IMG/VR virus record: IMGVR_UViG_3300036772_000557
Location: 1-64,000 of that record
DNA length: 64,000 nucleotides
From: a virus
Reading direction: 5' to 3' (one strand)
The notes beneath the pieces are model-generated. The model saw only the letters and a list, made by a program, of their open reading frames with translations. It did not search any database and was not told where the DNA came from. Shown piece after piece: positions 6,124-58,466 of the stretch; the stretch's first letter is position 1, and each line of letters begins with the position of its first letter. The position numbers and the translations under genes were made by a program.

Positions 6124-7974
6124 TCATGCCAACCCATAAGCGATGACTCGGGCATCGTATGGCGTCAGATACAGGATGCCGTCTGCGACTACAGGACCGA
6201 GAAATTTATTGAAGTCGAACTCATGGTTCCATCGTTGGCTGTCCCAGATGAGCGGGATCACTGCCCCGTTCGGACCCTCCTTGAACTGCGTCAGGTCATA
6301 GCCGAGCAGCCGACCGCGCGTGACCTCGCGGTTGGCGTCGCCGTAAGGGATGGTGGCGAACAAGACTGGTGTCTCAGCGGGTCGCGCCTGATCGTAGCAC
6401 AGGGACATGAACCCGCCCGGCATCCCGCCGGGGGGGACCGCCGCCTCGGGGCTGGCGTATTCCTCGCCGGCCGCGAGATAGGTGATTTTCACGTGGGGGG
6501 AGAGGCCGTGGATCGGCTCGATGCTCCACATCCGCAGGGTACTGTTCTCGCCCCAGCAGAGAAGCCGCCACCCCTGCGGGCTTTTCCATACGATCGGTGA
6601 GCCGTGCTGATGGTGTGTCCGACTGTAAAAAAGCTTGTTGAGATCCCTGATGTCGCTGGGCATCGGGCTTGCATCGGACGTGTAAAAGGTGAACCATATC
6701 GGTAGGCACGCCAACGCCATGTAATTTTTTGCGATCCCCTGCGCGGTCGACAGCATTTCCGGCGTCGTGCCGCCCATCGCGTTCAGGCGGACCGCGTAGA
6801 GGATGCCGTCCTTCCCAGAGACGAGGCAGAGCTCGAGCTCCTCGATGACGACCGGACCGCCCGAACCGAGATCCATGTCGATCGCCTCGGCCGGATTAAG
6901 CGGGACGTTGCCCGTGGCGGCATCTATCCTCTCGGCCGGCACCATCGCATAGCGCCGTAGGTTAGTGGGCGGCCGTTCCCGACGCGTCTGCTGAGCGATC
7001 TGTGTTGCCGCGACAACCGTTTCCGGCACCGTAACGGAAACCGCTTTCGGGGCCGCTACGCGGGCGCTATCGAGGAAGGGGCTCCAATGGTCGACCACCT
7101 TCAGTTCGCCCATCAGGGCGGGCCCGGGCGGCGTGTAGCGCAGCTTGATGACGCACTCTCCCCACTCGGTCTTGCCATCGAAGGTGCCGTTGCCGGTTAC
7201 CAGGATGATGTCGCCCTTGCTGTCGGCCGCGAGCCCCGCACCGGCCTGCCAGATACCGCCTCCCGAACCGATGACCGCGGTGCACAATGTGGCGGTGACT
7301 CTCCACAGCCGGACGTCGACGGCGATCACCCAGCCGCGGTTCGATGCGTCAATCTCGTAGATCGAGCCGAACCCGATGAACACGGTTTGCCCGAGCATCA
7401 GCAACGATGCCCGTTGCTTGCGGGCCGCGCTCGCGAATTTCTGTGGCGGGATCCCGCCGGGATCGTAGACAGCGCCCTCGAGGTCGAGCGGCTGCTTCGC
7501 GCGCGCTCCCGAGACGAGCGAGACCGCCTCGAGGAAGTGCCGAGCTCGAGCCACCGACCCGTCAGGGCTCGCCCAGCTGCAGGCGTAGAGCGTCTGGGTC
7601 GCCGGGTCGATGACTGGGGTCGACAGAATTCCCCAGTGGTCGTTAACAGCCCATCCGTCTATCGATTTATTGCCGTCGATCGGCCGACCGAGTTCGCGCT
7701 TCCAAAGCTCCGCACCAGTCTTCGCATCCGCACAGACGATCTCGTTCGCCATGGTCGCTACGACGAGCAGGTCGTGCACCTGGCCGTTCGTGAGACGCAC
7801 GCCCGGCAGGGTCAGGGGCTGCGCCTCAGCGCCGCGCGCGTCTCCCGGGAGGGGAAGCTCGTAGAGTTTTTTGATCCCGCGCGTCGCGACCGCCTGGGCC
7901 GTCAGAACGGTTTCGTTGGGATTCACCCCGGCGTTATCGGTCGTGTAGGCGCGGCGCGTGACCGCGACTGCCAT
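6124..7974 (-). CDS. PQQ-like beta-propeller protein (616 aa)
   Basis: Repeated blades of the quinoprotein type are visible: DAKTGAELWKRELGRP, then DHWGILSTPVIDPATQTLYA, a third around GLAADSKGDIILVTGNGTFD, and later GPVVIEELELCLVSGKDGIL and VVADGILYLTPYDARVIAYG. No signal peptide is seen, unlike periplasmic quinoprotein dehydrogenases, so this may be a structural or binding propeller. The start at 7974 is chosen because GGAG lies seven bases upstream and TAATG couples it to the preceding stop. Last gene of the operon after the amylase-like gene; rare cargo for a phage. Confidence 0.75.
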   Translation of the reverse strand: MAVAVTRRAYTTDNAGVNPNETVLTAQAVATRGIKKLYELPLPGDARGAEAQPLTLPGVRLTNGQVHDLLVVATMANEIVCADAKTGAELWKRELGRPIDGNKSIDGWAVNDHWGILSTPVIDPATQTLYACSWASPDGSVARARHFLEAVSLVSGARAKQPLDLEGAVYDPGGIPPQKFASAARKQRASLLMLGQTVFIGFGSIYEIDASNRGWVIAVDVRLWRVTATLCTAVIGSGGGIWQAGAGLAADSKGDIILVTGNGTFDGKTEWGECVIKLRYTPPGPALMGELKVVDHWSPFLDSARVAAPKAVSVTVPETVVAATQIAQQTRRERPPTNLRRYAMVPAERIDAATGNVPLNPAEAIDMDLGSGGPVVIEELELCLVSGKDGILYAVRLNAMGGTTPEMLSTAQGIAKNYMALACLPIWFTFYTSDASPMPSDIRDLNKLFYSRTHHQHGSPIVWKSPQGWRLLCWGENSTLRMWSIEPIHGLSPHVKITYLAAGEEYASPEAAVPPGGMPGGFMSLCYDQARPAETPVLFATIPYGDANREVTRGRLLGYDLTQFKEGPNGAVIPLIWDSQRWNHEFDFNKFLGPVVADGILYLTPYDARVIAYGLA

Positions 7975-8132
7975 TACAGCACTCTCCACATCATCCACTG
8001 GAGGCGTGCCCATCGCCACTTCTCCCGCCATCGGAAATGGCTCGCGACCACCAATCCGAGAGCGGCGAACCCTGCGATGCCTCCAGCGAAGCCGAAGGCC
8101 GCGCCTATCGTCTGATACAGCTCCAGGGTCAT
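7974..8132 (-). CDS. Small membrane protein between amylase and propeller genes (52 aa)
   Basis: MTLELYQTIGAAFGFAGGIA begins an N-terminal transmembrane helix, followed by a tryptophan/arginine-rich tail (WREKWRWARLQWMMW). It overlaps both neighbours (ATGA upstream, TAATG downstream), so the three genes form one translationally coupled unit. It could anchor a partner at the membrane; function unknown. Confidence 0.6.
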   Translation of the reverse strand: MTLELYQTIGAAFGFAGGIAGFAALGLVVASHFRWREKWRWARLQWMMWRVL

Positions 8133-9943
8133 AAGGCGTACTCCTCTGTTCCGTGATATTCGGGCGTCAGCCATTCGCCGATCGGCCCGCCAAGACCAGC
8201 ACTCTCGGTCCCGAGGTTGACCCACCCGTCGCGCGGGACCTGCAGCAAGACCAGCGTGTTGGCGGCTGTCCCCGGCGCCATCTCCGCTGTAGCCACGACG
8301 CCGTCCGCGTCTGTAGACGCAAATAGCTGGACTGAGCTGCGGGGAGGAACTGGTTCCTTCAGCGCCAATTCGGCGGCGAGCCGCGTGCCCTTCTTCGCCC
8401 ACACCCGGGCCATGCGGATATTGCCGTTGTCGACCGGCGGTATATCGAGGCTGAGGTCGGCGGCACCCTCGAACACGTGCCTCGTCGAACGCGCCGGAGG
8501 CCTCGGCCCGTCTTCGACACCGGCCGGCCCGAGGCAGACATAAGAGTTGCCAGACCACCATCGATTATGCGGGATCGTGAACGTCACGACACCATTGCGA
8601 TCAGCCCAGACGTCGGGAATGTGCCCATTATAATCCTGAAGGTGGGCATAGGCGCCGAACGATGTTTGAACGCTGCGGGTCTGATCGTTCCACCCGTCCG
8701 TGCTGATCGCCGACAGGCAACCCGGTTTGTCCACCACGTGCCCCATCCGTTCTGTGATCAAGACGTTCTGATCAACCCACCGGTCAACCGCCGGACCCCC
8801 GACGAGGTTATTGTGGCACCAGATCATATTGTCGATTAGGGGGCCGAGTCCGTAGCACCCGGGATCACTCGAATAATCCTTATGATAAATCATCGGGTCG
8901 CCCAGCGAGTGCTGCAGAATGTACGCGTAGCCCAACAACTTGCTCGTCGCAATCTGCTGCCCCGGGCTAGCGTCGGTATCGGGCGTGTCGACAAACGGCA
9001 CCGACTGAAAGTTGTCCCACGCCGCCCAGGTTTGGTTTGTCCGCAACGCCCACATACCCTGCCCGTAATCGAGAACCGCCTTGAGCGCAAAATGGACGTT
9101 GAAGTCCAACAGGCTCATTCGGCCCCCCATCGCGGTCCAGGCGTACCAATGCAGCGTGTTAGGGTTGCCATCGAAATACTCTCCCACCGCACGCAGCGCG
9201 GCCATCTTGCCGCTGGCGAGGAGTTCTTTCACGAACGGAACCCATAGCCCCTTGCAATCGTCGATACGGACGCCGTCGAGATTGAGCCGCCCGATATACC
9301 AATCCGCCCATTCCAGCGCCCCGTCGATCATGTAGCGATACGGGTCGCTGTTCTGGTAGCAGCACTCGTCGCCAAACGGGAAATCGTTAAATCGGTCAGG
9401 CACGGCGTCTTCCTGCACGAAAGGCGGGATCGTCTTGCCGTCAACACCGCCGCGGAAGCACCCGGGTGTCTTCGGCCAACGGCCAGCGTTGGGCGCGCCA
9501 ACCGGATATTGCTTCGTCGCAGCGCCTTTGTAGCTGTAGAAGCCGGCGCGACCGCCGGCCATCTGGTGCAGCACCATATCCGCGTGGTTCCGCATCCCGT
9601 TCTGGCGAACGATCGCTATCGCGCGCTGCAGCTGCTCAGCCGTGCCGAACCGCGTCGGGATGGATCCCTGCTGCAGCTTGCTGCCGAGGTCGTAGTGATC
9701 GAATACGCCATAACCTGTGCCCGTCGGCAGGTCGCCTGATTGCGTCTTGCACAGCGGAGGCCACATGATGTCGGTAAACCCCACGCGTGCCAGATGTGAA
9801 GCCCGCGAGGCAATGCGATCCGCCCACCACGGCTCGTTGGGCGTAGCGGCATCCACCGGCGCGGGCACCGATATCCGGTGCCCCCGCGGATCATTGGGAA
9901 ACGCAGGATCCGGGAAAAACGCGTTCGCCAGATACCAGACCAT
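8129..9943 (-). CDS. GH13-family alpha-amylase-like protein (604 aa)
   Basis: TIM-barrel signatures of glycoside hydrolase family 13 occur in order: ADMVLHQ (121-127, region I), GVRIDDCK (224-231, region II; nucleophile D228), VGEYFDG (253-259, region III; acid/base E255) and FVDTPDT (317-323, region IV; D322). An upstream segment (GTGYGVFDHYDLG, then RFGTAEQLQRAI) is typical of bacterial alpha-amylases acting on starch or glycogen. All three catalytic acids are present, but the three conserved subsite -1 histidines are replaced (Q127, G232, P321), so activity or specificity may be altered. No signal peptide. The start at 9943 is coupled by TAATG to the DUF6197-like gene. Confidence 0.85.
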   Translation of the reverse strand: MVWYLANAFFPDPAFPNDPRGHRISVPAPVDAATPNEPWWADRIASRASHLARVGFTDIMWPPLCKTQSGDLPTGTGYGVFDHYDLGSKLQQGSIPTRFGTAEQLQRAIAIVRQNGMRNHADMVLHQMAGGRAGFYSYKGAATKQYPVGAPNAGRWPKTPGCFRGGVDGKTIPPFVQEDAVPDRFNDFPFGDECCYQNSDPYRYMIDGALEWADWYIGRLNLDGVRIDDCKGLWVPFVKELLASGKMAALRAVGEYFDGNPNTLHWYAWTAMGGRMSLLDFNVHFALKAVLDYGQGMWALRTNQTWAAWDNFQSVPFVDTPDTDASPGQQIATSKLLGYAYILQHSLGDPMIYHKDYSSDPGCYGLGPLIDNMIWCHNNLVGGPAVDRWVDQNVLITERMGHVVDKPGCLSAISTDGWNDQTRSVQTSFGAYAHLQDYNGHIPDVWADRNGVVTFTIPHNRWWSGNSYVCLGPAGVEDGPRPPARSTRHVFEGAADLSLDIPPVDNGNIRMARVWAKKGTRLAAELALKEPVPPRSSVQLFASTDADGVVATAEMAPGTAANTLVLLQVPRDGWVNLGTESAGLGGPIGEWLTPEYHGTEEYAL

Positions 9944-10278
9944 TAGCCGGCCATGCACAGATCGAGCGCCCGCGCCTTTGCCAGCGCGAAGCCGTCGAGA
10001 ACGTCAGCCGGCATGCGTTCAGGGCGGTCATTCCAGACTTCCACCTGGCTCACACCAATCGCCTCGCCATAACATTTGCAGGCGTCCCATCGCAGCCGAA
10101 AGCATTGCTCGAAGTTGAGCCCCATGTCGGCAACAGCCTGCTGGATCGCGCCAATGACGCAGCTTGGCCTGCCCCTTTCTCCGTACATGCTTTTGCGCCA
10201 GCCGTACCGCCGGATGTTTGCTTCCGCGCGGTTGAGCGCTTCGTAGACCGGGTCGAAGCCGGTTCCGTCTAGTGGCAT
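9943..10278 (-). CDS. DUF6197-like protein (111 aa)
   Basis: The pattern YGERGRPSCVIGAIQQAV in the N-terminal half and VEVWNDRPERMPADVLDGF at the C-terminus resembles the DUF6197 family, whose members carry a cysteine-glycine-alanine core and a C-terminal WND motif. The biochemical role is unknown. Translationally coupled to the amylase-like gene. Confidence 0.6.
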   Translation of the reverse strand: MPLDGTGFDPVYEALNRAEANIRRYGWRKSMYGERGRPSCVIGAIQQAVADMGLNFEQCFRLRWDACKCYGEAIGVSQVEVWNDRPERMPADVLDGFALAKARALDLCMAG

Positions 10279-43552: not shown

Positions 43553-46500
43553 TTACCCTACGGCGCGGCGCGGAACCGGCGCGGCGATGGTTGTCCCGAC
43601 GGTGCGGCGGATCTCAGCAAGGTGCGTATTGCCGGCGCGCGCGTCCTGCGCGGCCTGGACCTGACCGCCTTGGAGTTGCTTCCGGCCAGCCTGCAGCTCG
43701 GTGATGATCGCGGTCAGCTTCGCGATCGTCTCGGCCGAGGTCGCATCGGGTGCTCCGCCGCCCGCTTGACCGCCGGCCCACGAATAGGTCGGCGACCGCC
43801 AATCTGTGGTGCCGAGGGCGAAGGCCCGCCCCTCGGGCGGGGTGAGCGGGAACGGGATTATCGTTGCGCCGCCCGGCTGGTCGAGGATCTGCGGCCCGTG
43901 GACCCCGACCTGCGACCAGGAATTATCGTTCGCGGCGCGGTACCATTCCGGGCCCTGCTCGCCGACGAGGATCGCGCCAGGTGGCGTGCTCCCTGTGCCT
44001 TCGGCAAAGGCCGGCAGCCCTTTTATGAGCGTGTTGTAGGCAGTCTGGTTGTTGGGTATTTGGCTGAGCGAGGTGGCCTGCGCGTTGGCGATGGCACGGG
44101 CTCGCTGGATGATCGTGGCGTATTGCGGCTCAGAGGTCGGGTTCAAGAGGCCGGAGTTGATCGCCTGGTTGATGAGCGCCCACTCCTGGAGCGTCGGCGT
44201 GCCGTTGAGCGCATCTGAGAGGGCCTGGGAGAGCAGCTGGCTCGGGTTCGCCGCCCGCCCCGCTGCCCACTGCTGGGCCTGCTCGATGACGAGCGCATAG
44301 CCCGGCTGCGAGGTCGGCGAGAGGATGCCGGCCTGCACGGCTTGGTTGATGACGGTCCAGTCCGCATCGCTCGCGGCGCCGGCGACGGCGTCGGCCAGCG
44401 CGCTGCTGAGCGTCGAGGCGCTCGGGTAGAGCGGGAAATTGGGCTGGACTGCGGTGATGCCGGACCCGGTGAAACTCTGACCGGTGACCGGGTTTGTCGT
44501 CAGGCTGCTCGACGAAGACGCTCCCGATGTCGCCGTTGTCGCCAATGTCGCCGACGACGCGGCGGCCGCGGGCGCTGTATAGGGCGTGACCGTGGCTCCG
44601 GCGTTCTGCCACCAAGCCACATCGGCGGGGGTGAGATCGCCGACGTAATCGGGCGCGGTCGGGTTGCTCGCCGAGCTCTGGGTGATGCTGTAGAGCGCGG
44701 CGCCCGCGCGCGGCGTCGGGAGCGCTCCCGTGGAGGGCGTCACCGTGGCGCCAGCGTTCTGCCACCAGGCGAGGTTTTGCGGTGTCAGGTCACCGACGTA
44801 GGACGGGCCGGAAGGTTGTGAGATCGAATAGAGCTGGGTCCCGGCCGGGGTCGCCAGCCCGGTGCCGTTGGATGTTGTGGCCGAGCCGGTCCCGGCAGTC
44901 GCGGCTGGGGCAGCGGCCGCGCCGACGGTACCGGTGCCTCCAGTCGTCCCGCCAGCTGACCCCGCGGCCGCGCCGGTAAGCGCGCTCGTCAGGTTTTGCA
45001 GCGCGGAAGTGTTCGCCCGAAGATCGCTCGTGGTGCCCGTCGCGGTCGCGCTCGCAGCGGTTCCGTTGGCGAGCGCGCTCGCTTGGCCCGTCGGATAGCC
45101 GCTCGCGGATACCAGGAACGGTGAGATCGAGGCGAGCACCTGCTCGCGCACCGAGGCGGTTTGCGGGCCGTTGCCATAAGCCTGCTGGGAGGCTTGCACG
45201 GCCGCCTGGCCGGCCGATGAGAGTTCGTTGATGAAGCTCGTGTTGCCGCCCTGGACGAGCGCGAGCACCGTGTTGAACTGCTCGAGCGCGGCGGTCACCT
45301 GATTGGCCGCGGTCAGACCGGACAGCGAACCGCCGGTGATCTCGTTCTTCAGGCTGGTGAGCTGCTGCGTCGCCTGGTACCAGATTTGCGCGATAGCGTC
45401 GGCATTCTCCTGTTGGACGCGCACGAGATTGGCGCCCGTCGCCTCGGCTATCTGCACACGCTGAATGCCGGCGGCCTGCTCCTTTTGGATGGCGAGCTGC
45501 AGCGGGGCGGTGACCGCTTCCTCGAGCTGGCCGACCCAATCCGGCAGCGGGCCGAGCGGAATCTGAGTGCCGGTCGCTTGCGCTGTCGCTTGCGCCACCT
45601 CGGCCGCGCCGAGCTGCTGGGCCTCGGCGACATTTTGGCCAGCGGCAGGCGCGGCTTGGATCTGTTCAAAGGCGAGCGCCTGGGCCTTCTGCACGGCGAG
45701 CACGCCCGCCTCGGTGATGGCCTCGGTCGCCTGCGAGAGGGCATCGGGAAGGGCGTTGCCGCTCGAGATGAGCGCGTTGATCATGGTCGTAAGCTCGGGG
45801 GCGACCGTGCCGAGCGCGGCGAGGAGTGCCTGCAGCTGGTCGGTACCGAGTCCGGCGATCGCCGGACCGGCTTGCAGCGCGGCGATCCCTTCCGGGCTGC
45901 CGTGCGCGACAAGCGCCTGCAGCGCCGCGGGATTGCTGATTTGCTGCACGATGGCTTGCACGATCGAGGCCGTGTTGAGCGCGGCGACAGCGCTCGCGTT
46001 CTGCCCGGTGGCCCGTTGCACCTCGTTGCGACCCTGAGCTTGCGCGGCCTGCTGTTGGATCGCGAGGGCGATCGGGTTGACGATCCCCTCGAGCGCCTGG
46101 GTGATGGTGTCAGGCAGTTCGGTGCCTGTGATGATGAATTGCTGCGCGAGCGCGGCCAGGTCGGGCGCAACGTTGGCCGAGGCACCGATGAGCGCGGTCA
46201 GTTGCTGCCCGCTGAGGCCCGCCAGGGTTGGCGCGGCCTGCAGCGTCTCCTGTGCCTTCAGGTTGTTCGGGTAGACGAGCGCGTTGAGCGCGGTCGGATT
46301 GCTGAGGTTGCTCAGCACCGCCTGGATCATGTTTGCGGAGTTGAGTTCCTCGACCTTGACGAGGTCCTGGCCGGTCTGCTGCGCGACCGCGATCCTCTCC
46401 TGCCCCGCCGCCTTTTCCTTCTCGATGGCCAGCTGGAGCGGGTCGGTCAGAGCCTGAATGGCTTGCGTCAGGATATCCGGCAGGGCGTTGCCGCTGTCGA

Positions 46501-49500
46501 TCAGGGCTTGCGCTTGCGCGGCGATTTCCGGCGCGACCTGGCCGAGATCCTTAATGACCATCGTCAGCTGATCGACGCCGAGAGTCGCGAGCGTCGTTCC
46601 CGCCTGAAGCGCGGCGATGCCTTTGATCTGTTGGTTCGTCTGATCCGACACGCCGAGCGCTGCGGCGTCCGAGGTGTTTTGGAGAAAGGCCTGGTGCACC
46701 TTGACCAGCGCGGCGACGAAATCGTTGCCGCCGCTTATCGCGGTTTGGAACGCCTCATCGAGAGAGGTCGTGAAATCGGTATTGAGGGTCTTGATGACCG
46801 CCTTCAAGCCGTTCGCGATCGGCGCGGTATCCACGCCGAATTGCGCCGCCTGAGAGGTCAGCTGGCTGAAGGTCGCGTTGATCTGAGTAAGGGCTTGGGC
46901 AAACGGCCCGACGGCATTCACGTTGCCGTTGAGGCTCGCCGTCAGTTGCGCCTCGGTGACGTTCAGCTTGTCGTAGACATCGGCGAACTGGACCGCCGCC
47001 TGAAGCTGCGACGGATCGTTGATGTTTTTGAGGACCTGCCCCAGCGTCCCGCTGACATTCGTCAGGCTTTGGATGATCTGAAGCTCGGTTTGCTGCACCG
47101 CACCAGCGGCGTTCTGATCGTATCGGCCGCCCGCGATGCCTGACCCGGTGACCCTGATTCCGGTCCTGTTGTCGGAGCTGACGACGGCAGTCGAAAGATT
47201 TGTGCCAATCGGCTGACCTTGCGCGTTGGTCAGCTGGCTCAGGGCGCGCACGAAGCTACCGATCTGGTCGGCTACCTGCTGAGATTGCTGAATGTTGGCC
47301 GCGCTGCCGCCCACCGTGTTCGTTTGGACTTGCCCGGTCGGGCCGATAACTGCACCTGCGGATTGGCCAGGGGGGCCGCCGCCAAAAAGGCCGCCTACGC
47401 CGCCACCAAAAAGACCGCCTAAAAGGCCGCCTATCAGCGTCCCCACGCCCGGCACGATCGAGCCGATAAGGGCACCGGCCGCGCCGCCGCCGGCGCTCCC
47501 TATATTCCCACCTACGGCGTTCCCGCCGAGCAGCGAATTGAGGAGCGATCCGGCCCCAAAGCCGGCGCCCGCGCCGGCCAGGACCGATCCGAGCGTGGCG
47601 CTGGTCGATAGGCCGAAGAGGCTGCCCTGCGAGACCGCATTCGCGCTCCCGCCCAATTCGAAGGGAACGGACGGGCCCGCAACACTGGCCGAGAACGGTG
47701 CTCCCGATATTCCTCCGATCGGTCCGGCCGCCGAAGCAAACCCGAGGTTGGGGCCGAGGTTCGAAAAGAAGCTGCCGACGTTGCCGAACAGGCCGCCTCC
47801 TCCTCCACTTCCGCCGCTCAAGAAATCTGGCAGGAAGCCAGGAAGGTTGCTGTTCAGCTTTTCGATCAGCCCGGCCAACGAGCCGATGTTCTGAAGACTG
47901 CCGAGACCGGATGTGGCCGCGGCTGGTGTGGCTGTCGCCGCGGTCGGCGCGGGCTGACCGGCCTGTGCCGCGCCGGCCGCAGAGGGAGCGGCTTGCGGCG
48001 CGATGCTGGCTGCACTCGCGATCGGCGTCTCGGTGCCCGGGATCAGGAACACGGTCGGGCCGGCCGCGCCCGCCTCGGCCGTTGCCGCTGCCGCTGTGGG
48101 TTGCGCCTCGCCGCTCGCTGCCGCGGCCAACGCGGGGACGCTCGCCGAGATCGATGCGGCCGGTTGCTGTGCCCCGGTTGGCACAATGGCGGCGCTAAGC
48201 AGCGCCTGGAACTGTTGATCGGAAAGCCCGGCGGGGCTGGGTGCCGGGGCGGTTCCTCCGCTAGAGGCGGCCGGGGCGGTGGCTCCCTGAAGATTGAGGT
48301 TGTTGCCGCTGCCGCTCTGAAAGACGTAGCCGCCTTGCGTCGCGTTGAAGATGCCAGAGCCGCTCGAAAGGCCGCTGGCGGTGACGGTGATCTGTGAGCC
48401 CGAGATCCCTCCTGCCGACGCAGCCCCCGGATTGAGGCCGCCAAAGGTCCCGATTTGTTGTGCGGCCTGCCCAAAACCGAGGGCGCCCGCGAGCGTGCCG
48501 GTTACGGGCTTGATGAACGCCAGCTGCGCGATTTGCGAGGCAATATCGCCGAGCGTTGCCTTGAGGCCAGCCCTGAACTCGTCCCAATAATGCTTGATGT
48601 GCTCGCCCGCTTCAACCGGCGTGCGGATCAGCGCGTTGCGGATCGAGTTCGCGAGCTCGCCGTCGACAACCCCGGCGACCGAGCGGAACGCCTCGTTGAG
48701 CCTGGCGGTAGCTTCCTGGGCCTGGGTTAGCGCGGCGTTCTGCTGGATGACGGCAGCCGTACTCGCGTAGATCGCGTCGCGCTGGCCTTGCGTCAGTTCC
48801 GTATAGCGCTGCTCGATTTCCTGCCGGGCGCGAAGTAGCTCGACCTGCGTACGGATCGCGTCGCTGCTCTGGCCTTGGATCGACAATTCGAGGGCGAGAA
48901 CCTGAGACTGATCCCGGTTGCCCTGGAGTTGGTGGCCGGCTTCGATCGTCTGCTCTGCCGCGGCGCGGCGCCGTTCTTGCGCTTGCGCCGCCGCGTCGAT
49001 GTCCCGCGCTACCGCTATGTAGGACAGCTTCGTCGACGCCACCGCCCGGTTTAACGCATCTTGGGTTTGAGCGGCGGCGGCGGCCTCGATTCGCGCCTTT
49101 TCCTCGGCGTCTCGGCTCTGTAATGCCGCGGCCGCGAGGCGTTCCTGCGCGGCGATCGCCGGTTCGGATAAAGCAATCCGCTCACGGCCGGTTTCTGTCG
49201 CAGCGACCGCTTGCCGGCTGAGGATATCTTGTTGCGCAGTCGGGATCTCGGCCGGCGATCCGCCCTTGGCGGCAATCTGCCGGCGGGCTTCGATCAGCGC
49301 TTGGTAGCGGTAACCTTCCGCGATGCTCGTCTGGAATGATGCGCCGATCTTGATGTTGTCGGCGACTTCCTGTTCGTTCAGCCGGTGCTGCGTCTCTTGC
49401 GCGGTAGCCAGTTTTTGCCAGAAGCCGAGCATCCCCTCTTGCACGAATCTGTTTTGATCGCCGAGCGGCAATTCCTTCGCTGCCACATCTTGCAGGCGTT

Positions 49501-52201
49501 GCCGCTCCTGCGCCGCCTCGCGCTCGACTCCTGGAAGCTGAGAGAGGATGGCTATCTGGTCTTTGAGTTTCTGGTTCTGTGTCTCAATTGCGGAGTTTTG
49601 CGTCTCGGTCGGCCGGAACGGCGTCGTCGAGGTGCCCAATGCCTGCTCGGCGAAGGCAAGCCGCTGCGGCACTTCCTTCTCGTAATTGCCGGCGCCCTCG
49701 AATTTTTTTGTTAAAATCGAGTTCTGCTCTCCAAGCGTAGAGGCCGAGAAGAACTCTGGCGCCTTGGTTTGGATCTCCTTTTTTGCGAACTGCAGCTGGG
49801 TCCGATAATCCATCGGGTCGAGGCCGTTGAGTTGTGCCCAGGCCTGCATCTGGCCCCATCGCTCGCTGTCCCACTGGAACAGGCCTTGGTGGGGGGTCCC
49901 CAATCCGGCGCCGGTATTGAACCCAGATTCCTGACGGGCTTGTCCAGCGAGCGCCGCCGCCTGGCTGGGAGTAAACCCGAGGGAGCCAGTCGCGTAATTG
50001 AGGAAGTCAGCCTGTTTGACCTCAGCGCCGCCGGTTAGCGGCCGCGGAGGTAGTGTGGCGGCCGCGCCCGGCTCTGGGTTCCCAGAGCCCGGACCATATT
50101 CAGGAAATAACTCTGCGCGCGCGCCAGCCGCGGAATGCGAGAACGGCGCCGAGAGTTTCCCTATTGAATCGGCAAGCCCTTGAATCGATGTGATGAATTC
50201 CTTCACATCGCCAAGCATGAGTTTTATTTGGGAGCTTATGACTCCCGGAACGTCACTGTGCGACAGGTCTAGAATAAAATCTTTCCAAGCGTTCTTAACT
50301 TCTAGGAGCGCCGCGCCGAGCGGGCTTAAATCTTCTGTGAATGCCGGGATAGTTGCCCGCAGCGCGGCATACACCTGGCGGAGGGCTTCTGCCGATTGCG
50401 CATGCTGATCGAGATAATGAATGTTGGCGATCTGAGAGGCGCTGAGGGCGTGCAGCGATTCTGCGAATTTGACAGCTTCGTCGACGCCGCCACCGAAGGC
50501 TTTTATCAGGTTCTCGGCAGCAACTGGCGTGCCCGCCGCGCCTTCGCCGTTATACTCTGCAATATCCCTGGCGAGTCCCGCGAAATCTCCCGTGGATTGA
50601 CCGGGCCGGACGAAGCCGGAGCGAGAAATCTCCGTTATGGTCTTCTTTGCGTCCTCGCCTGAGACGCCGGTGTGCTCTAGCTGCTCGGTGAATTTTTCCA
50701 GCTCGGCCGCACTGGTCAGGCTGCCGTCGCCCATCACCTTGACAGTCGCGCCGAATGATCGAAGATTCGCCTCGACCTGAGTCGCTTTATAAGCGGCGTC
50801 TGCCAGCACGCCGATCACTGCGGCTACGCCCAGCACGGCCGGATTTAAGAGAAGTCCCAGTGCGCCGAAGCGTTGTATTTCAATGGTCGCCGAGCCGATC
50901 AATCGGGTGAGATCGCCCCGAAAAAGCTCGCGAATTATCACGAACCCTTCGCGCACCCGGCCGCCGGCTCCAGCGGCATGTTCGCCAGCACTAGCCAATT
51001 CCTCGGTAGCCGCCGCGCCGGCATGTAAATCGCCAGCGCCACCTCGAATGCCGGTGAACAGGTTCTTCAAGCTAGTCCAATAGGAGTCGGCTCCTTGCCG
51101 GGCTTTGTTCCACGCCTCGACGTCGACTTGGTTGATCGGATTGGTGAGTTCTAGCGGCGCGCGCGCCGCGTTAAAGGCGCCGACATTGATACCCGTCGGG
51201 CCTCTCGCGTGTTGTGCCGCCGCATCTTCGATGGACTGAAGGCTTGCGCGCTGCCCGGCCATCGCCGCGTCATGCGCGGCGGAAGCGACCGCAATAGTCC
51301 CGATGCTCTCGGCGCGCGCCTCGGCCCCGGCTATCGTGCCGAGGCTTTGCCGCTCCTCGTCCGTGACAGCACGGCGCGGCGGAGGAGGGGGTCCCGCTGG
51401 AGGGGAAACCGCCGCGGCGACCTGGGGACCCGCCGTTGCGGCTTGCGCGACAGCATTTCGGGCTTGAGTTGCAGACGCTTCCGTCGCCGCTGCGGCCCGG
51501 CTGTTTGCCGCCGCCAACCCTGCGATCTCGGTCGCCAAAAGCTGTTCCGGGGCTGGCGATGCCGCCGCGATACTCCCCGCCGCTTGCGCTGCCGAAGGTG
51601 TGGCCGCGGCCGCGACCGACTCCGAGGCGTGGAGCTTTGCGATATCGGCGCCGGCCGTCGAATCTGCAGTCTGCGCTTGCCGTACGAACCGGGTGGCCTG
51701 TGTTAGCGGACCGCCGGGGTGGATGCTGCTCAGCGCCGCATCGGTTAGGGGCGCGAGGGCCGCTGCTGTTACCGCGGTGGGCGCGAGCGACCGCTCGAAC
51801 GGCATAGCGGAGATTCCGCCAGGCTCCGGGACTCTCCCAGCCTGGATATTCTGGCGAATCTGAGTAAGCGATCCCAGCGCCGCCTGCGCGTCGAACACGT
51901 TGAACGCGCCCTGTTGCATCCGGCGGATGGTCTGCTCGTGCGCGTCCGCGAGTTCTTTAAGCGCCGCTTGGTATTTGCCGACACCGGCGATTTGCTGATC
52001 GAGAGCCGTGGCGCCTGTCGTCTGGCCGGCCCGGGCCATACGAGCACCAGTTTGGTCGACTGCCTGGCCGAGCCTATCAACAGCCGCGGTGGCCTGCTCT
52101 GATGAGCGCTGAACCCGGCCCGTCGCTGTCTCGAACTCTTGCGCACCACGAACAGCCGGGGCTGCATCCAGAATCAGCTCGACGATCATCTGATCGGCCA
52201 T
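43553..52201 (-). CDS. Tail tape measure protein with lysozyme domain (2882 aa)
   Basis: Longest gene of the window, in the canonical place downstream of tail assembly chaperones. Coiled-coil N-terminus (AAVDRLGQAVDQTGARMARA), hydrophobic segments, a phage tail lysozyme domain around residues 730-860 (TPSQAAALAGQARQESGFNT, HQGLFQWDSERW), a glycine-rich hydrophobic region around 1460-1610, three to four repeats of about 115 residues between about 1850 and 2270 (core LQAGPAIAGLGTDQLQALLA), and two YVGDLTP repeats near 2460-2540. It sets tail length and ejects into the envelope. GGAG upstream of the ATG. Confidence 0.9.
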   Translation of the reverse strand: MADQMIVELILDAAPAVRGAQEFETATGRVQRSSEQATAAVDRLGQAVDQTGARMARAGQTTGATALDQQIAGVGKYQAALKELADAHEQTIRRMQQGAFNVFDAQAALGSLTQIRQNIQAGRVPEPGGISAMPFERSLAPTAVTAAALAPLTDAALSSIHPGGPLTQATRFVRQAQTADSTAGADIAKLHASESVAAAATPSAAQAAGSIAAASPAPEQLLATEIAGLAAANSRAAAATEASATQARNAVAQAATAGPQVAAAVSPPAGPPPPPRRAVTDEERQSLGTIAGAEARAESIGTIAVASAAHDAAMAGQRASLQSIEDAAAQHARGPTGINVGAFNAARAPLELTNPINQVDVEAWNKARQGADSYWTSLKNLFTGIRGGAGDLHAGAAATEELASAGEHAAGAGGRVREGFVIIRELFRGDLTRLIGSATIEIQRFGALGLLLNPAVLGVAAVIGVLADAAYKATQVEANLRSFGATVKVMGDGSLTSAAELEKFTEQLEHTGVSGEDAKKTITEISRSGFVRPGQSTGDFAGLARDIAEYNGEGAAGTPVAAENLIKAFGGGVDEAVKFAESLHALSASQIANIHYLDQHAQSAEALRQVYAALRATIPAFTEDLSPLGAALLEVKNAWKDFILDLSHSDVPGVISSQIKLMLGDVKEFITSIQGLADSIGKLSAPFSHSAAGARAELFPEYGPGSGNPEPGAAATLPPRPLTGGAEVKQADFLNYATGSLGFTPSQAAALAGQARQESGFNTGAGLGTPHQGLFQWDSERWGQMQAWAQLNGLDPMDYRTQLQFAKKEIQTKAPEFFSASTLGEQNSILTKKFEGAGNYEKEVPQRLAFAEQALGTSTTPFRPTETQNSAIETQNQKLKDQIAILSQLPGVEREAAQERQRLQDVAAKELPLGDQNRFVQEGMLGFWQKLATAQETQHRLNEQEVADNIKIGASFQTSIAEGYRYQALIEARRQIAAKGGSPAEIPTAQQDILSRQAVAATETGRERIALSEPAIAAQERLAAAALQSRDAEEKARIEAAAAAQTQDALNRAVASTKLSYIAVARDIDAAAQAQERRRAAAEQTIEAGHQLQGNRDQSQVLALELSIQGQSSDAIRTQVELLRARQEIEQRYTELTQGQRDAIYASTAAVIQQNAALTQAQEATARLNEAFRSVAGVVDGELANSIRNALIRTPVEAGEHIKHYWDEFRAGLKATLGDIASQIAQLAFIKPVTGTLAGALGFGQAAQQIGTFGGLNPGAASAGGISGSQITVTASGLSSGSGIFNATQGGYVFQSGSGNNLNLQGATAPAASSGGTAPAPSPAGLSDQQFQALLSAAIVPTGAQQPAASISASVPALAAAASGEAQPTAAAATAEAGAAGPTVFLIPGTETPIASAASIAPQAAPSAAGAAQAGQPAPTAATATPAAATSGLGSLQNIGSLAGLIEKLNSNLPGFLPDFLSGGSGGGGGLFGNVGSFFSNLGPNLGFASAAGPIGGISGAPFSASVAGPSVPFELGGSANAVSQGSLFGLSTSATLGSVLAGAGAGFGAGSLLNSLLGGNAVGGNIGSAGGGAAGALIGSIVPGVGTLIGGLLGGLFGGGVGGLFGGGPPGQSAGAVIGPTGQVQTNTVGGSAANIQQSQQVADQIGSFVRALSQLTNAQGQPIGTNLSTAVVSSDNRTGIRVTGSGIAGGRYDQNAAGAVQQTELQIIQSLTNVSGTLGQVLKNINDPSQLQAAVQFADVYDKLNVTEAQLTASLNGNVNAVGPFAQALTQINATFSQLTSQAAQFGVDTAPIANGLKAVIKTLNTDFTTSLDEAFQTAISGGNDFVAALVKVHQAFLQNTSDAAALGVSDQTNQQIKGIAALQAGTTLATLGVDQLTMVIKDLGQVAPEIAAQAQALIDSGNALPDILTQAIQALTDPLQLAIEKEKAAGQERIAVAQQTGQDLVKVEELNSANMIQAVLSNLSNPTALNALVYPNNLKAQETLQAAPTLAGLSGQQLTALIGASANVAPDLAALAQQFIITGTELPDTITQALEGIVNPIALAIQQQAAQAQGRNEVQRATGQNASAVAALNTASIVQAIVQQISNPAALQALVAHGSPEGIAALQAGPAIAGLGTDQLQALLAALGTVAPELTTMINALISSGNALPDALSQATEAITEAGVLAVQKAQALAFEQIQAAPAAGQNVAEAQQLGAAEVAQATAQATGTQIPLGPLPDWVGQLEEAVTAPLQLAIQKEQAAGIQRVQIAEATGANLVRVQQENADAIAQIWYQATQQLTSLKNEITGGSLSGLTAANQVTAALEQFNTVLALVQGGNTSFINELSSAGQAAVQASQQAYGNGPQTASVREQVLASISPFLVSASGYPTGQASALANGTAASATATGTTSDLRANTSALQNLTSALTGAAAGSAGGTTGGTGTVGAAAAPAATAGTGSATTSNGTGLATPAGTQLYSISQPSGPSYVGDLTPQNLAWWQNAGATVTPSTGALPTPRAGAALYSITQSSASNPTAPDYVGDLTPADVAWWQNAGATVTPYTAPAAAASSATLATTATSGASSSSSLTTNPVTGQSFTGSGITAVQPNFPLYPSASTLSSALADAVAGAASDADWTVINQAVQAGILSPTSQPGYALVIEQAQQWAAGRAANPSQLLSQALSDALNGTPTLQEWALINQAINSGLLNPTSEPQYATIIQRARAIANAQATSLSQIPNNQTAYNTLIKGLPAFAEGTGSTPPGAILVGEQGPEWYRAANDNSWSQVGVHGPQILDQPGGATIIPFPLTPPEGRAFALGTTDWRSPTYSWAGGQAGGGAPDATSAETIAKLTAIITELQAGRKQLQGGQVQAAQDARAGNTHLAEIRRTVGTTIAAPVPRRAVG

Positions 52202-54552: not shown

Positions 54553-56037
54553 TCAACCGGTCATATGCTGCTGCAATAACTCGCCGAGCGTGCCGCTGTA
54601 ATCGGTCTCGCCGATGTGGCTCAGCGTTATCGACGGGTCGATCCACACTCTGCCGCCGAGATCATTCCAGCGCTCGCAGAACGCGAAGTCCTCGCCGCCA
54701 TCGTTCAGATCATCAGGGTCATTCAGAAACAACTTGTAATAATATTTTGTGATCTCGGGGTCGATCGAGGCCGGCAGTGGGCGCTTCCATTCCGGGTGCG
54801 CGCCGATCATCTTCTCGATTACATGACGCTGGATGACCATAAAGGCTGCGCCGGCTTTGGTGCCTTCGGTCGTGAAGTTCCCCAAGGCATCCCATTCCAT
54901 CACCGCGTTGCGCGGCGCAAAAAAGCACCAGACGCCGGCATCGCTATTCGGCCGCGCATCTTTCTTTCGCCCGACAGCGGCAATGACATCGTGCTGAGCC
55001 ATAATGAGACGCAGCGCCGATTGCGGAGCCCACCCCATATCGTCGTCGATCAGCAGCGCATGGGTGAACTGGCCACCATCGGAGGTCTTGGCGGCCATGA
55101 ACTGTGCTATCAGGAAGTTCCTCGCCTTCGGAATATTTGACATGCCGATGACGCGGCGCCGATCCCACTCGACGCCGAGGCGCTCGAAGTCGCGTATCGT
55201 CGCGCCGTAGGAGTCGGCGTATTGCCAGACCGGCCGCCCGCCGTGCGGCGTCAGGATCATAGCCTTGCAGGTCTTGAGGTATTCGATCCTCGCGAGCTCT
55301 ACGGAGTGATCGGGCGAGCCCCCGATCGCTGGAGCGGCTGGCGTCGCCTGGCGCAGCTTCCGAGCGGCCGCGACGGCGACGTGGCGTTCGTCTTCGAGCC
55401 ATTCCCTGAAGACGCCCGCATCCGACGCCCACAGCCCGCCAGCGGGCTGGGTGGGGTAATTGACGCCGTACACCTTCTCGTGCGTCTCGTCGGCTGGCGC
55501 ATCGCCCTTGAGCACGTGGCGGTGCCGGACCATGACGCCCATGTCCATCGTCGAGCACTCGGCCTCGCGGCCGATGGTCTCCCATACGTCGTCGACGTAG
55601 AGGTGATGCAGCCCAGGCGGAAAGATGTAGCCGATCGCGCGCACAAGCGGGCCCGAGATGACCCAGCAATTCCCGATGCGATTCGGCGCCTGCCAGCCGT
55701 CGTTGCAAGCGACGAAGTTGGACCCGTCGAGCTGGGCGACCAGCCGCCTGTCCCAGGCCGGGGTCTCGGGAACGCAGTCGTCGCCGATCAGCCCGAGCCA
55801 GGCGCAGTCTACGACCTGCTCCCAGACCATGGTGATCTTTTCACCCTGGGTCTCGCCGTGCGTGTAATGGACGAACCAGCCGAGTGGCAGTTCGAGCGCG
55901 TCGTAGGCGGCGCAATTGTCGGCGTAATCCGCGACGTCGACTAGGAGCATACCGGGCGTCGAGCCGCCTGTCGCGTTGTAGGTGGCGAAGAAACGCTGTA
56001 GGTTGGCGACGCGCCTACGTGAAGGCAGGAGCCACAT
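54553..56037 (-). CDS. Two-domain GT-A glycosyltransferase (494 aa)
   Basis: N-terminal domain begins MWLLPSRRRVANLQRFFATY and has the metal-binding GDDCVPE. A second GT-A-like domain follows (ATIRDFERLGVEWDRRRVIG, LLIDDDMGW with a DxD). It would transfer sugars to protein, DNA or surface glycan from nucleotide sugars. Tandem GT-A domains are unusual in a tail operon. Start at 56037 chosen because the conserved strand follows at once. Confidence 0.75.
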   Translation of the reverse strand: MWLLPSRRRVANLQRFFATYNATGGSTPGMLLVDVADYADNCAAYDALELPLGWFVHYTHGETQGEKITMVWEQVVDCAWLGLIGDDCVPETPAWDRRLVAQLDGSNFVACNDGWQAPNRIGNCWVISGPLVRAIGYIFPPGLHHLYVDDVWETIGREAECSTMDMGVMVRHRHVLKGDAPADETHEKVYGVNYPTQPAGGLWASDAGVFREWLEDERHVAVAAARKLRQATPAAPAIGGSPDHSVELARIEYLKTCKAMILTPHGGRPVWQYADSYGATIRDFERLGVEWDRRRVIGMSNIPKARNFLIAQFMAAKTSDGGQFTHALLIDDDMGWAPQSALRLIMAQHDVIAAVGRKKDARPNSDAGVWCFFAPRNAVMEWDALGNFTTEGTKAGAAFMVIQRHVIEKMIGAHPEWKRPLPASIDPEITKYYYKLFLNDPDDLNDGGEDFAFCERWNDLGGRVWIDPSITLSHIGETDYSGTLGELLQQHMTG

Positions 56038-56040
56038 TTT

Positions 56041-56229
56041 TTGCAAACCACCGAATTTGTTTTGCGGGGCGGCAAGTCTATTCGATACGTCGCCGAGGCG
56101 ATCAGGCATGAAATCGAGCGCCTTATGTCCATCGCGGACAATCCGGCCGATCAGAATGCTCAGGCGGACGCGCTAAACGACATTGGCCTCTACGAAGCCA
56201 TTCTTGCCGAGATCGTTAAGGCCGGATGA
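56041..56229 (+). CDS. Plus-strand small helical protein (62 aa)
   Basis: TTG start with AGGAG nine bases upstream, divergent from the glycosyltransferase start four bases away. RGGKSIRYVAEAIRHEIERL, helical and charged. Its end overlaps the convergent membrane gene by 14 bases. Confidence 0.45.
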   Translation: MQTTEFVLRGGKSIRYVAEAIRHEIERLMSIADNPADQNAQADALNDIGLYEAILAEIVKAG

Positions 56230-57048: not shown

Positions 57049-57237
57049 TTACAGCTGTTTGGGCCAGCAATCGAACACGACATTGCTGTCGGGCCACCGC
57101 CGAAAGATTGGATACCAGGACTTCAGATCAGCCCTGCACAGCGCCGCGGTTGGATATGCGTTTCCAATCTCCTGGACGGTGCCTTGGGAGAAGGCAACTA
57201 TTGTCCAGAATAGGATTCCAGATGCCATGAGGCTCAT
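57049..57237 (-). CDS. Small protein with N-terminal hydrophobic segment (62 aa)
   Basis: MSLMASGILFWTIVAFSQGT, then two cysteines (LCRADLKSW, FDCWPKQL) that could form a disulfide if exported. ATGA overlap with the radical SAM stop suggests coupling to that enzyme; it could be its partner or substrate (speculative). Confidence 0.5.
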   Translation of the reverse strand: MSLMASGILFWTIVAFSQGTVQEIGNAYPTAALCRADLKSWYPIFRRWPDSNVVFDCWPKQL

Positions 57238-58466
57238 GGCAAAAGTTCCCGCACCACTGTCCGAGCGTCCGCGAACGGCTCCACCTTGACGACGTGCGCC
57301 GCGCGGTACCGTAGTCGCTCGCGGTCGATCAGATCGCCCCGGAATGTGTCGTATGGCTCCAGCTCGCCGTCGCCGCGCCGTGAGAGGTAATTGCCGTCGA
57401 CCCCATCGCAGACTGGCATCGCGCGGCAAGAGCCGCATTTCTTCGCCGTGAAGACCTTGCCGGCGCCGCGGGCCGCGATAATGTCCGGCCGTTTATCGGT
57501 TGGGTCGGGCATCGTCATGTTCACTTTGAGTGGATAATGCGTCTCGTGATCCCGCAGCGGCAGCCGCCGGCCCATCACCTCGGGATCGGCCGCACCGGGC
57601 TTCGCCATGTGGTCGATCGCGTTCATCCACTCGTGCGGGTCGTGGCGCACGCCGACGACGCCCACGAGGTTTCGCTCGAGCCCCCGCATCGTGCACAGCG
57701 GCGCGTAGCGGACGTTGACGGCGATGCCGGCGGCCTCGAGGATGTCGCGGGCTTCAATCAGATAGGGTCGCACCTCGCTGTAATGCGCTTGCACCTCTGT
57801 CGCCTTGCCGCCAGGTCGCGACCAGGCGTGGTAGGCGTTCATTATGATAAAATTCGCGATGTAGACGCGGTGCGCGGCGATCTCGCGCGCGATCTGCGGC
57901 AGCAATCGAAAGTTCTCTTCGCACACCGTCGTGTTGGTGCCGTAGTCGAACCCGGCGTCGAGATCGGCCATCGCCGCCAGCAATTGCCGCCAAGAGCCGC
58001 CGGTGATCGATGAGAATCGCTCCTCGTCGACGGCATGAATCGACAGCAGGAAATCGGCCACGCCGGCGTCAAGTAGGCCAGCGAGCAGCGTCGGATACCC
58101 CGCCGCTGATTTCATCTTTCGCTTCAGGTATTGCCCGAGCGTGATGATGCGCGGCGCGAGGCCGACCTTGCGGGCGTGCACGACGAGCTCAACGATCCCC
58201 GGGTGGAGACACGGCTCGCCGCCGGTGACGTCGAAGCCGAGGAAGCCGTTGGCGTTGAGGGACGAAGCGAGCCGCTTGATATGGTCGGTCGAGTGGAACT
58301 CGGCCGTGCGCATCCCGGCGAACTGATCAGCCTCATCATTCAACCAGGAGTAGTAGCACCACTGACAGCTATGGACGCACTTCAGGCCGACATCCACGAC
58401 GCCCCACCGCGACAGGCGGCCGGGTTCGTGGAGATGGACTCCAACGAGAGCCTCTTTGGAATCCAT
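57234..58466 (-). CDS. Radical SAM enzyme (410 aa)
   Basis: C30-x3-C34-x2-C37 (CVHSCQWCYY) binds the radical SAM [4Fe-4S] cluster; TGGEPC at 81-86 is the GGE S-adenosylmethionine motif. A C-terminal group C344-x2-C347-x5-C353 (CGSCRAMPVC), with C258, could hold an auxiliary cluster of SPASM/twitch type. Such enzymes modify peptides, proteins or small molecules. GGGAG upstream of the ATG. It lies between the tail tube gene and the glycosyltransferase. Confidence 0.85.
   Translation of the reverse strand: MDSKEALVGVHLHEPGRLSRWGVVDVGLKCVHSCQWCYYSWLNDEADQFAGMRTAEFHSTDHIKRLASSLNANGFLGFDVTGGEPCLHPGIVELVVHARKVGLAPRIITLGQYLKRKMKSAAGYPTLLAGLLDAGVADFLLSIHAVDEERFSSITGGSWRQLLAAMADLDAGFDYGTNTTVCEENFRLLPQIAREIAAHRVYIANFIIMNAYHAWSRPGGKATEVQAHYSEVRPYLIEARDILEAAGIAVNVRYAPLCTMRGLERNLVGVVGVRHDPHEWMNAIDHMAKPGAADPEVMGRRLPLRDHETHYPLKVNMTMPDPTDKRPDIIAARGAGKVFTAKKCGSCRAMPVCDGVDGNYLSRRGDGELEPYDTFRGDLIDRERLRYRAAHVVKVEPFADARTVVRELLP

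Follow-up and report, generated by a model that had tools for sequence, protein, structure and literature searches.

The locus examined here raises the question of why a phage should carry, in one operon, a gene for a GH13 amylase-like protein and a gene for a PQQ-like beta-propeller, and whether the first of these can still be an enzyme when its active site is so altered. The window, that is the whole stretch of DNA analysed, comprises the first 64,000 nucleotides of the virus record IMGVR_UViG_3300036772_000557. The full record (90,448 bases) contains integrase, exonuclease VIII, portal, terminase and tail genes, and the source virus is therefore likely to be a temperate tailed phage; prophage calls, like the signal-peptide calls below, were made by eye. 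The features of the locus are presented in Table 1. The translational coupling of the three genes, described previously from the sequence, was confirmed on the DNA by overlapping stop/start junctions (TAATG at 9943, ATGA at 8132 and TAATG at 7974), and AGAGGAG and GGAGAG precede the second and third starts, those of the 52-aa ORF and the propeller gene. Upstream in-frame ATG codons at 8013 and 8031 were rejected as propeller starts in favour of the one at 7974, which has the TAATG junction and GGAGAG ahead of it. Genes for an HU-like protein, a replication initiator and a RuvC-like resolvase were found upstream of the operon, and this agrees with the replication-side context previously assigned to it.

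Table 1. Position and strand of the genes of the operon and of the active-site codons of the GH13-like gene.
Feature	Position	Strand	Description
GH13-like gene	8129..9943	-	604 aa; (beta/alpha)8 barrel and C-terminal beta domains; no visible signal peptide
52-aa ORF	7974..8132	-	Single TM helix predicted by eye; basic tail rich in Trp and Arg; coupled on either side (ATGA, TAATG)
PQQ-like/BamB-like beta-propeller gene	6124..7974	-	616 aa; no visible signal peptide in this copy
DUF6197-like gene	9943..10278	-	Directly upstream; its stop overlaps the GH13 start (TAATG); operon context
Q127 codon	9563..9565	-	Region I, canonical His position; H126 directly before it; all 24 relatives have HQ
D228 codon	9260..9262	-	Nucleophile position
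E255 codon	9179..9181	-	Acid/base position
D322 codon	8978..8980	-	Transition-state-stabiliser position

The closest PDB sequence relatives of the GH13-like protein were liquefying-type alpha-amylases, with 6gxv at an E value of 2e-30. The Pfam Alpha-amylase match was sub-threshold, and residues 30-130 gave weak sequence matches to dextransucrases. The score against NCBIfam alpha-amylase NF006970 was 214 bits, below the 516-bit cut-off, so that the PRK09441 alpha-amylase equivalog cut-off was not reached. An AlphaFold2 model (pLDDT 71, pTM 0.71) contained the (beta/alpha)8 barrel of GH13 and matched PDB amylases at E values of about 1e-27 (best TM-score by target length, 0.74). In domain B (127-194) the model was of low confidence and is unreliable. 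The C-terminal beta domain had weak structural matches to tail-fibre-type viral proteins; no viral amylase barrel was found in the viral structure library, where the only matches were of this weak, tail-type beta-domain kind. The protein resembles GH13 subfamily 5-type alpha-amylases (6gxv, B. licheniformis-type; the NCBIfam PRK09441 group) in its barrel, its D/R/D/E/D motif residues and a GYGxxDxYDLG segment, at about 23-28% identity. It differs from them in having HQ instead of NH in region I, a much shorter domain B, an extra C-terminal beta domain and a coupled propeller gene, and its relatives mostly have another residue in place of the region IV His.

The histidines of regions I and IV are both normally important in GH13. 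The preliminary description reported that the catalytic acids D228, E255 and D322 are kept while all three subsite -1 histidines are replaced (Q127, G232 and P321), and all six residues were verified letter by letter. The active site was then compared across 24 HQ-type sequences with a median pairwise identity of 38%, among which 26 of the 358 catalytic-region columns (7%) were invariant. Y78, D122, H126, Q127, R226, D228, K231, E255 and D322 were identical in all 24, and these include the Asp/Glu/Asp triad and region II Arg by which GH13 is recognised. Region I was His-Gln in every member; thus the alignment placed no other histidine in the vacated position, although an invariant His stands one residue before it. 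At position 232, Gly was found in 18 sequences, Asp in 5 and Ser in 1, and two canonical acidobacterial amylases aligned here also carry KG in region II, so that G232 is not peculiar to this protein. Region IV was variable, position 321 being occupied by Pro (13), His (5), Leu (3), or Met, Arg or Ala (1 each). Judged from this alignment, the change in region I is a signature of the group, that in region IV is not fixed, and there is nothing unusual about the Gly of region II. A linked GH13 in G372, which was canonical-like in keeping the His of both regions, I and IV, was rejected as a member of the HQ group and left out of the count; identification of the HQ-type linked GH13s as canonical amylases was likewise rejected.

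Histidine loss had been taken as a possible mark of inactivity. According to a review (PMC4919382), Gln stands where the region I His would be in the active GH70 glucansucrases and in the active GTFB-type or 4,6-alpha-glucanotransferases, and the BmaN1 group of GH13, in which the catalytic acids are changed, has been reported to be active (PMC5347038). Given these precedents, together with the ordinary region II Gly and the variable region IV, the missing histidines are no argument for a dead enzyme. The likeness to GH70 has limits, as the GH13-like protein is much smaller and is not circularly permuted (region I precedes regions II-IV), and GH70 keeps the region IV His (six of seven conserved residues kept; PMC4919382) that most HQ members have lost. 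BmaN1 and the HQ group both have altered catalytic-site residues, but in the former the acids are changed and in the latter the histidines, with the acids intact. The conserved acids argue for a live enzyme, and the GH13-like protein is expected on this basis to act on alpha-glucan. The Gln at region I, as in the transglycosylating GH70 enzymes, is by analogy a hint of transfer, not evidence for it.

The propeller fell just under the cut-off for Pfam PQQ_2/BamB (E 2e-5). It shared 32% identity with a protein of Acidisarcina annotated as a PQQ-like propeller and was 27-32% identical to plasmid-encoded proteins annotated as PQQ-binding-like propellers. Its model (pLDDT 78, pTM 0.82) matched PQQ alcohol dehydrogenases and BamB, and the E values for 8gy2 (3e-12) and 1yiq (8e-11) place it in the PQQ-ADH-related propeller fold; the resemblance to BamB is one of fold only. 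Like BamB, the PQQ alcohol dehydrogenases and the PQQ-binding-like propellers of Acidobacteriota and Burkholderiales, it has the propeller fold and signature repeats; unlike them, it has motifs of its own (RKQR, DxDLGS, GKDG, HHQH and GEN). A vicinal Cys-Cys pair over the PQQ is a criterion for PQQ-dependent alcohol dehydrogenases, and this pair is absent from the propeller sequence. Apparent Tat/Sec signals were seen by eye at the N-termini of the propellers of viral contigs G001, G004, G005, G006 and G007 and of most bacterial copies, and none was seen in those of the window, G003, G008 and b012. A small membrane-protein-like ORF lay in or beside the operon in three of these four signal-less cases, few as they are (52 aa in the window, 135 aa in b012 and 114 aa in G003). 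Pfam searches with the neighbouring proteins (493 aa in G003, 1324 aa in G238 and the small membrane proteins) returned nothing. No export signal was visible by eye in any GH13 examined, which favours a cytosolic substrate for this protein and is awkward for a step shared with the propellers, most of which have a signal. Host glycogen and a surface glycan were the possible targets put forward in the preliminary description.

Relatives of the pair required alignment-based scans, as viral and genome contigs yielded no match to single-sequence patterns; tblastn against INPHARED phages gave no match to either protein. Alignment-based scanning of IMG/VR, first with A1 and afterwards with A3, recovered further viral contigs encoding proteins 33-39% identical to the GH13-like protein. 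Profile searches with propeller and GH13 found the propeller in all eight other viral contigs having this GH13 type, a set that is not fully independent because the GH13s of G001 and G002 hardly differ. The two genes were neighbours or no more than about 2 kb apart in seven contigs (G001, G002, G004, G005, G006, G007 and G008), and about 12 kb apart in G003; the GH13 of G006 was split across two reading frames. The view that a carbohydrate-enzyme-like protein and a propeller form a real phage gene pair was thus upheld, and the possibility raised beforehand that the pair is absent from all relatives was refuted.

The pair was also present in bacteria. Its best bacterial relative was an Acidobacteriaceae MAG contig with adjacent genes (41% and 45% identity). 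The propeller (>400 bits) was found in 6 of 396 Acidobacteriota genomes, all with a GH13 relative, adjacent in four; all six recur within a sample of 398 genomes of the Acidobacteriota family of G012. This family sample yielded 34 genomes with the propeller and 13 with an HQ-type GH13 above 300 bits. All 13 fell among the 34 (hypergeometric P about 1e-15, ignoring genome relatedness), and the pair was adjacent in 12; the number of genomes with an adjacent pair rose to 18 once lower-scoring GH13s were counted. ATGA-type junctions between the two genes recurred among the relatives. A control set of 148 Bacteroidota genomes contained one with weak propeller matches of about 120 bits and none above about 121. 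Propeller matches above 400 bits were confined to the sample of one family, with the proviso that the genome search scored a few best candidates per genome, so that absences are uncertain.

The HQ GH13 sequences formed one clade (99/97) to which the canonical amylases did not belong, and within it the bacterial rows lay dispersed among those of phages. The propeller tree was only partly congruent: G007 grouped with b116 there and with G005 in the GH13 tree, which suggests exchange of partners. The place of the pair in the phage genome also varied, being the end of the replication operon in the window, the portal-head region in G001, G004 and G006, the tail region in G008 and the recombination region in G005 and G007. 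Bacterial settings, as judged by eye, varied too, apart from four members (G238, G326, G608 and G663), and no single pathway gene was common to the linked MAG contexts. One bacterial GH13 (G524) was fused to a galactose-oxidase-like domain, and this links the group to sugar oxidation. As to the host, the best bacterial relative came from the Acidobacteriaceae, and the portal of the window phage had 38-44% matches in genomes of the family of the Acidobacteriaceae MAG. Cellular kinship, a location outside fixed phage modules and a variable position are features of a moron or auxiliary gene, and all were found here.

The mixing of phage and bacterial GH13s in one clade and the varying place in phage genomes point to a mobile carbohydrate module that belongs to Acidobacteriota, is borne by phages as a moron and consists of two genes, those of a working HQ-group GH13 and of its coupled propeller; this is favoured, at somewhat better than even chances. 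The pair itself, its linkage, its spread and mobility, the conserved active-site residues and the predicted folds were directly observed. The GH13-like protein, with its Asp/Glu/Asp machinery kept, its -1 subsite remodelled and its domain B shortened, would act in the cytosol, where it may cleave or transfer an alpha-glucan or alpha-glucoside as a hydrolase or transglycosylase. The 8-bladed-type PQQ-ADH/BamB-like propeller, exported in most relatives, would probably handle, bind or oxidise the sugar product or partner at the envelope. The 52-aa membrane protein may position the unexported propeller of the window at the membrane. By means of the module, an infected cell or a lysogen might gain access to an alpha-glucan pool or have it remodelled. 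Observations that speak against this reading are the lack of a His in region I and, for most members, in region IV too, the low confidence of domain B and the propeller's want of a Cys-Cys pair. A bolder reading, offered tentatively and rather doubtful, is that of a new GH13-type group with invariant region I His-Gln whose members are obligately paired with an exported propeller (PQQ-like, or galactose-oxidase-like in one fusion), forming a two-protein sugar-modifying pathway exchanged among Acidobacteriota, the phages that infect them and, in a single lineage, loci of contractile injection systems.

Both proteins might instead be virion or contractile-tail accessories (receptor-binding proteins, a depolymerase or loaded cargo), with the GH13 barrel binding or trimming a surface glycan and the propeller acting as scaffold or binder. 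The C-terminal beta domain, with its weak tail-fibre-type matches, is in keeping with this, as is the pair of L016, which has a tail-tube gene on one side and a baseplate-hub-like gene on the other; moreover, the pairs of the four members set apart above adjoin contractile-injection-system operons (sheath, gp19 tube, AAA ATPase). These last, however, are confined to one divergent sublineage, and at least eight bacterial pairs stood in chromosomal settings without tail genes recognisable nearby by eye. Export signals on most propellers would be unexpected in virion proteins, and the genes of the window, G005 and G007 lie in early or replication regions; a virion role is considered unlikely. It is also considered unlikely that the pair is a catalytically dead glycan-binding one, the GH13 fold being kept as a lectin and the propeller serving as a second binding module. 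The lost histidines and a propeller fold often used for binding would suit it, but strict retention of the three acids with R226, K231 and Y78 across 24 divergent sequences would not be expected of a lectin, and catalysis in GH70 tolerates a Gln at region I. The earlier suggestion that the two are binding proteins only is disfavoured by the same conservation of the acids, and an active enzyme is expected rather than a lectin.

The moron-like positions, the exported propeller with its BamB-like fold and the small membrane protein of the window could also be read as a host-takeover, superinfection-exclusion or defence cassette, in which the exported propeller acts on the host envelope and the GH13 is its cytosolic partner. 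PADLOC, however, gave nothing beyond a weak generic GlgB match, and no defence islands were recognisable in bacterial chromosomes that carry the pair, so that such a cassette appears very improbable. Chance acquisition of an ordinary amylase from bacteria, together with a propeller unrelated to it, would be in accord with a likely bacterial origin and with the frequency of both GH13 and PQQ-like proteins in Acidobacteriota. This is scarcely credible, being refuted by the co-occurrence: the genes are adjacent in at least 18 bacterial genomes and in most of nine viral contigs, the GH13s stand apart from canonical amylases, and strong propeller matches came from one family's sample, with none in the Bacteroidota control.

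Virus-encoded GH13 proteins have been proposed as auxiliary carbohydrate genes before, among the alpha-amylases (GH13/GH57) of mangrove-soil viruses (PMC6460857). In the accessible text of that study these are known from annotation only, have predicted hosts in other phyla, and appear with neither a propeller pair nor an HQ motif. A literature search, in which subscription papers and CAZy were not covered, found no description of a GH13/propeller pair. Acidobacteriota are abundant in soil and their phages are little known (PMC11924767); neither an amylase nor a propeller is mentioned in that paper on Tunturi phages. As the pair was found in this soil phage, in phages unrelated to it and in chromosomes of Acidobacteria, sequence comparison indicates that it is probably a gene module travelling between hosts and phages, whose active site is unusual but probably a working one, and not a chance passenger. 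It raises the questions of how GH13 chemistry copes without the region I and region IV histidines and of what role the coupled propeller plays. A conserved two-gene module moving between Acidobacteriota and unrelated phages would constitute a concrete, testable auxiliary gene set.

The late region of the window was dominated by a single large tail protein, and the tail gene block held a radical SAM protein gene and the gene of a 518-aa protein.

The GH13 and propeller genes of the phage in viral record G004 are separated by a gene that Pfam assigns (E 4e-44) to orotidine-5'-phosphate decarboxylase, and in viral record G006 a split phage GH13 is shared by two reading frames, reflecting either a frameshift or an assembly error. 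Outside the main Acidobacteriota family, the HQ-type GH13 (invariant His-Gln in region I) was observed in a Bryobacterales MAG as broken remnants, with no adjoining propeller.

Coordinates of features in the window, viral records and bacterial genomes
Feature	Location	Remark
2882-aa tail protein	window 43553-52201	tape-measure-like by position; PHROG tail match weak, no other
518-aa protein	window 54553-56109	PHROG glycosyltransferase (moron) similarity
Radical SAM protein gene	window 57234-58466	
Decarboxylase gene	L116:14570-15283	G004
Split GH13	L121:5710-7574	G006
GH13 remnants	L066:5100-6251	Bryobacterales MAG
GH13 fusion	L169:4369-8256	G524
Injection-system-linked pairs	L129, L130, L139, L140, L165, L167	G238, G326, G663, G608

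In bacterial genome G524, an HQ-type GH13 continues at its C-terminus into a domain resembling galactose oxidase (Pfam GO-like_E_set, E 1.9e-28), and a separate PQQ-like propeller gene adjoins the fusion gene. A divergent sublineage of the GH13-propeller pair was adjoined, in four bacterial genomes, by contractile-injection-system operons, whose genes beside the pairs included tail sheath, gp19-type tube, AAA ATPase and baseplate-like genes.
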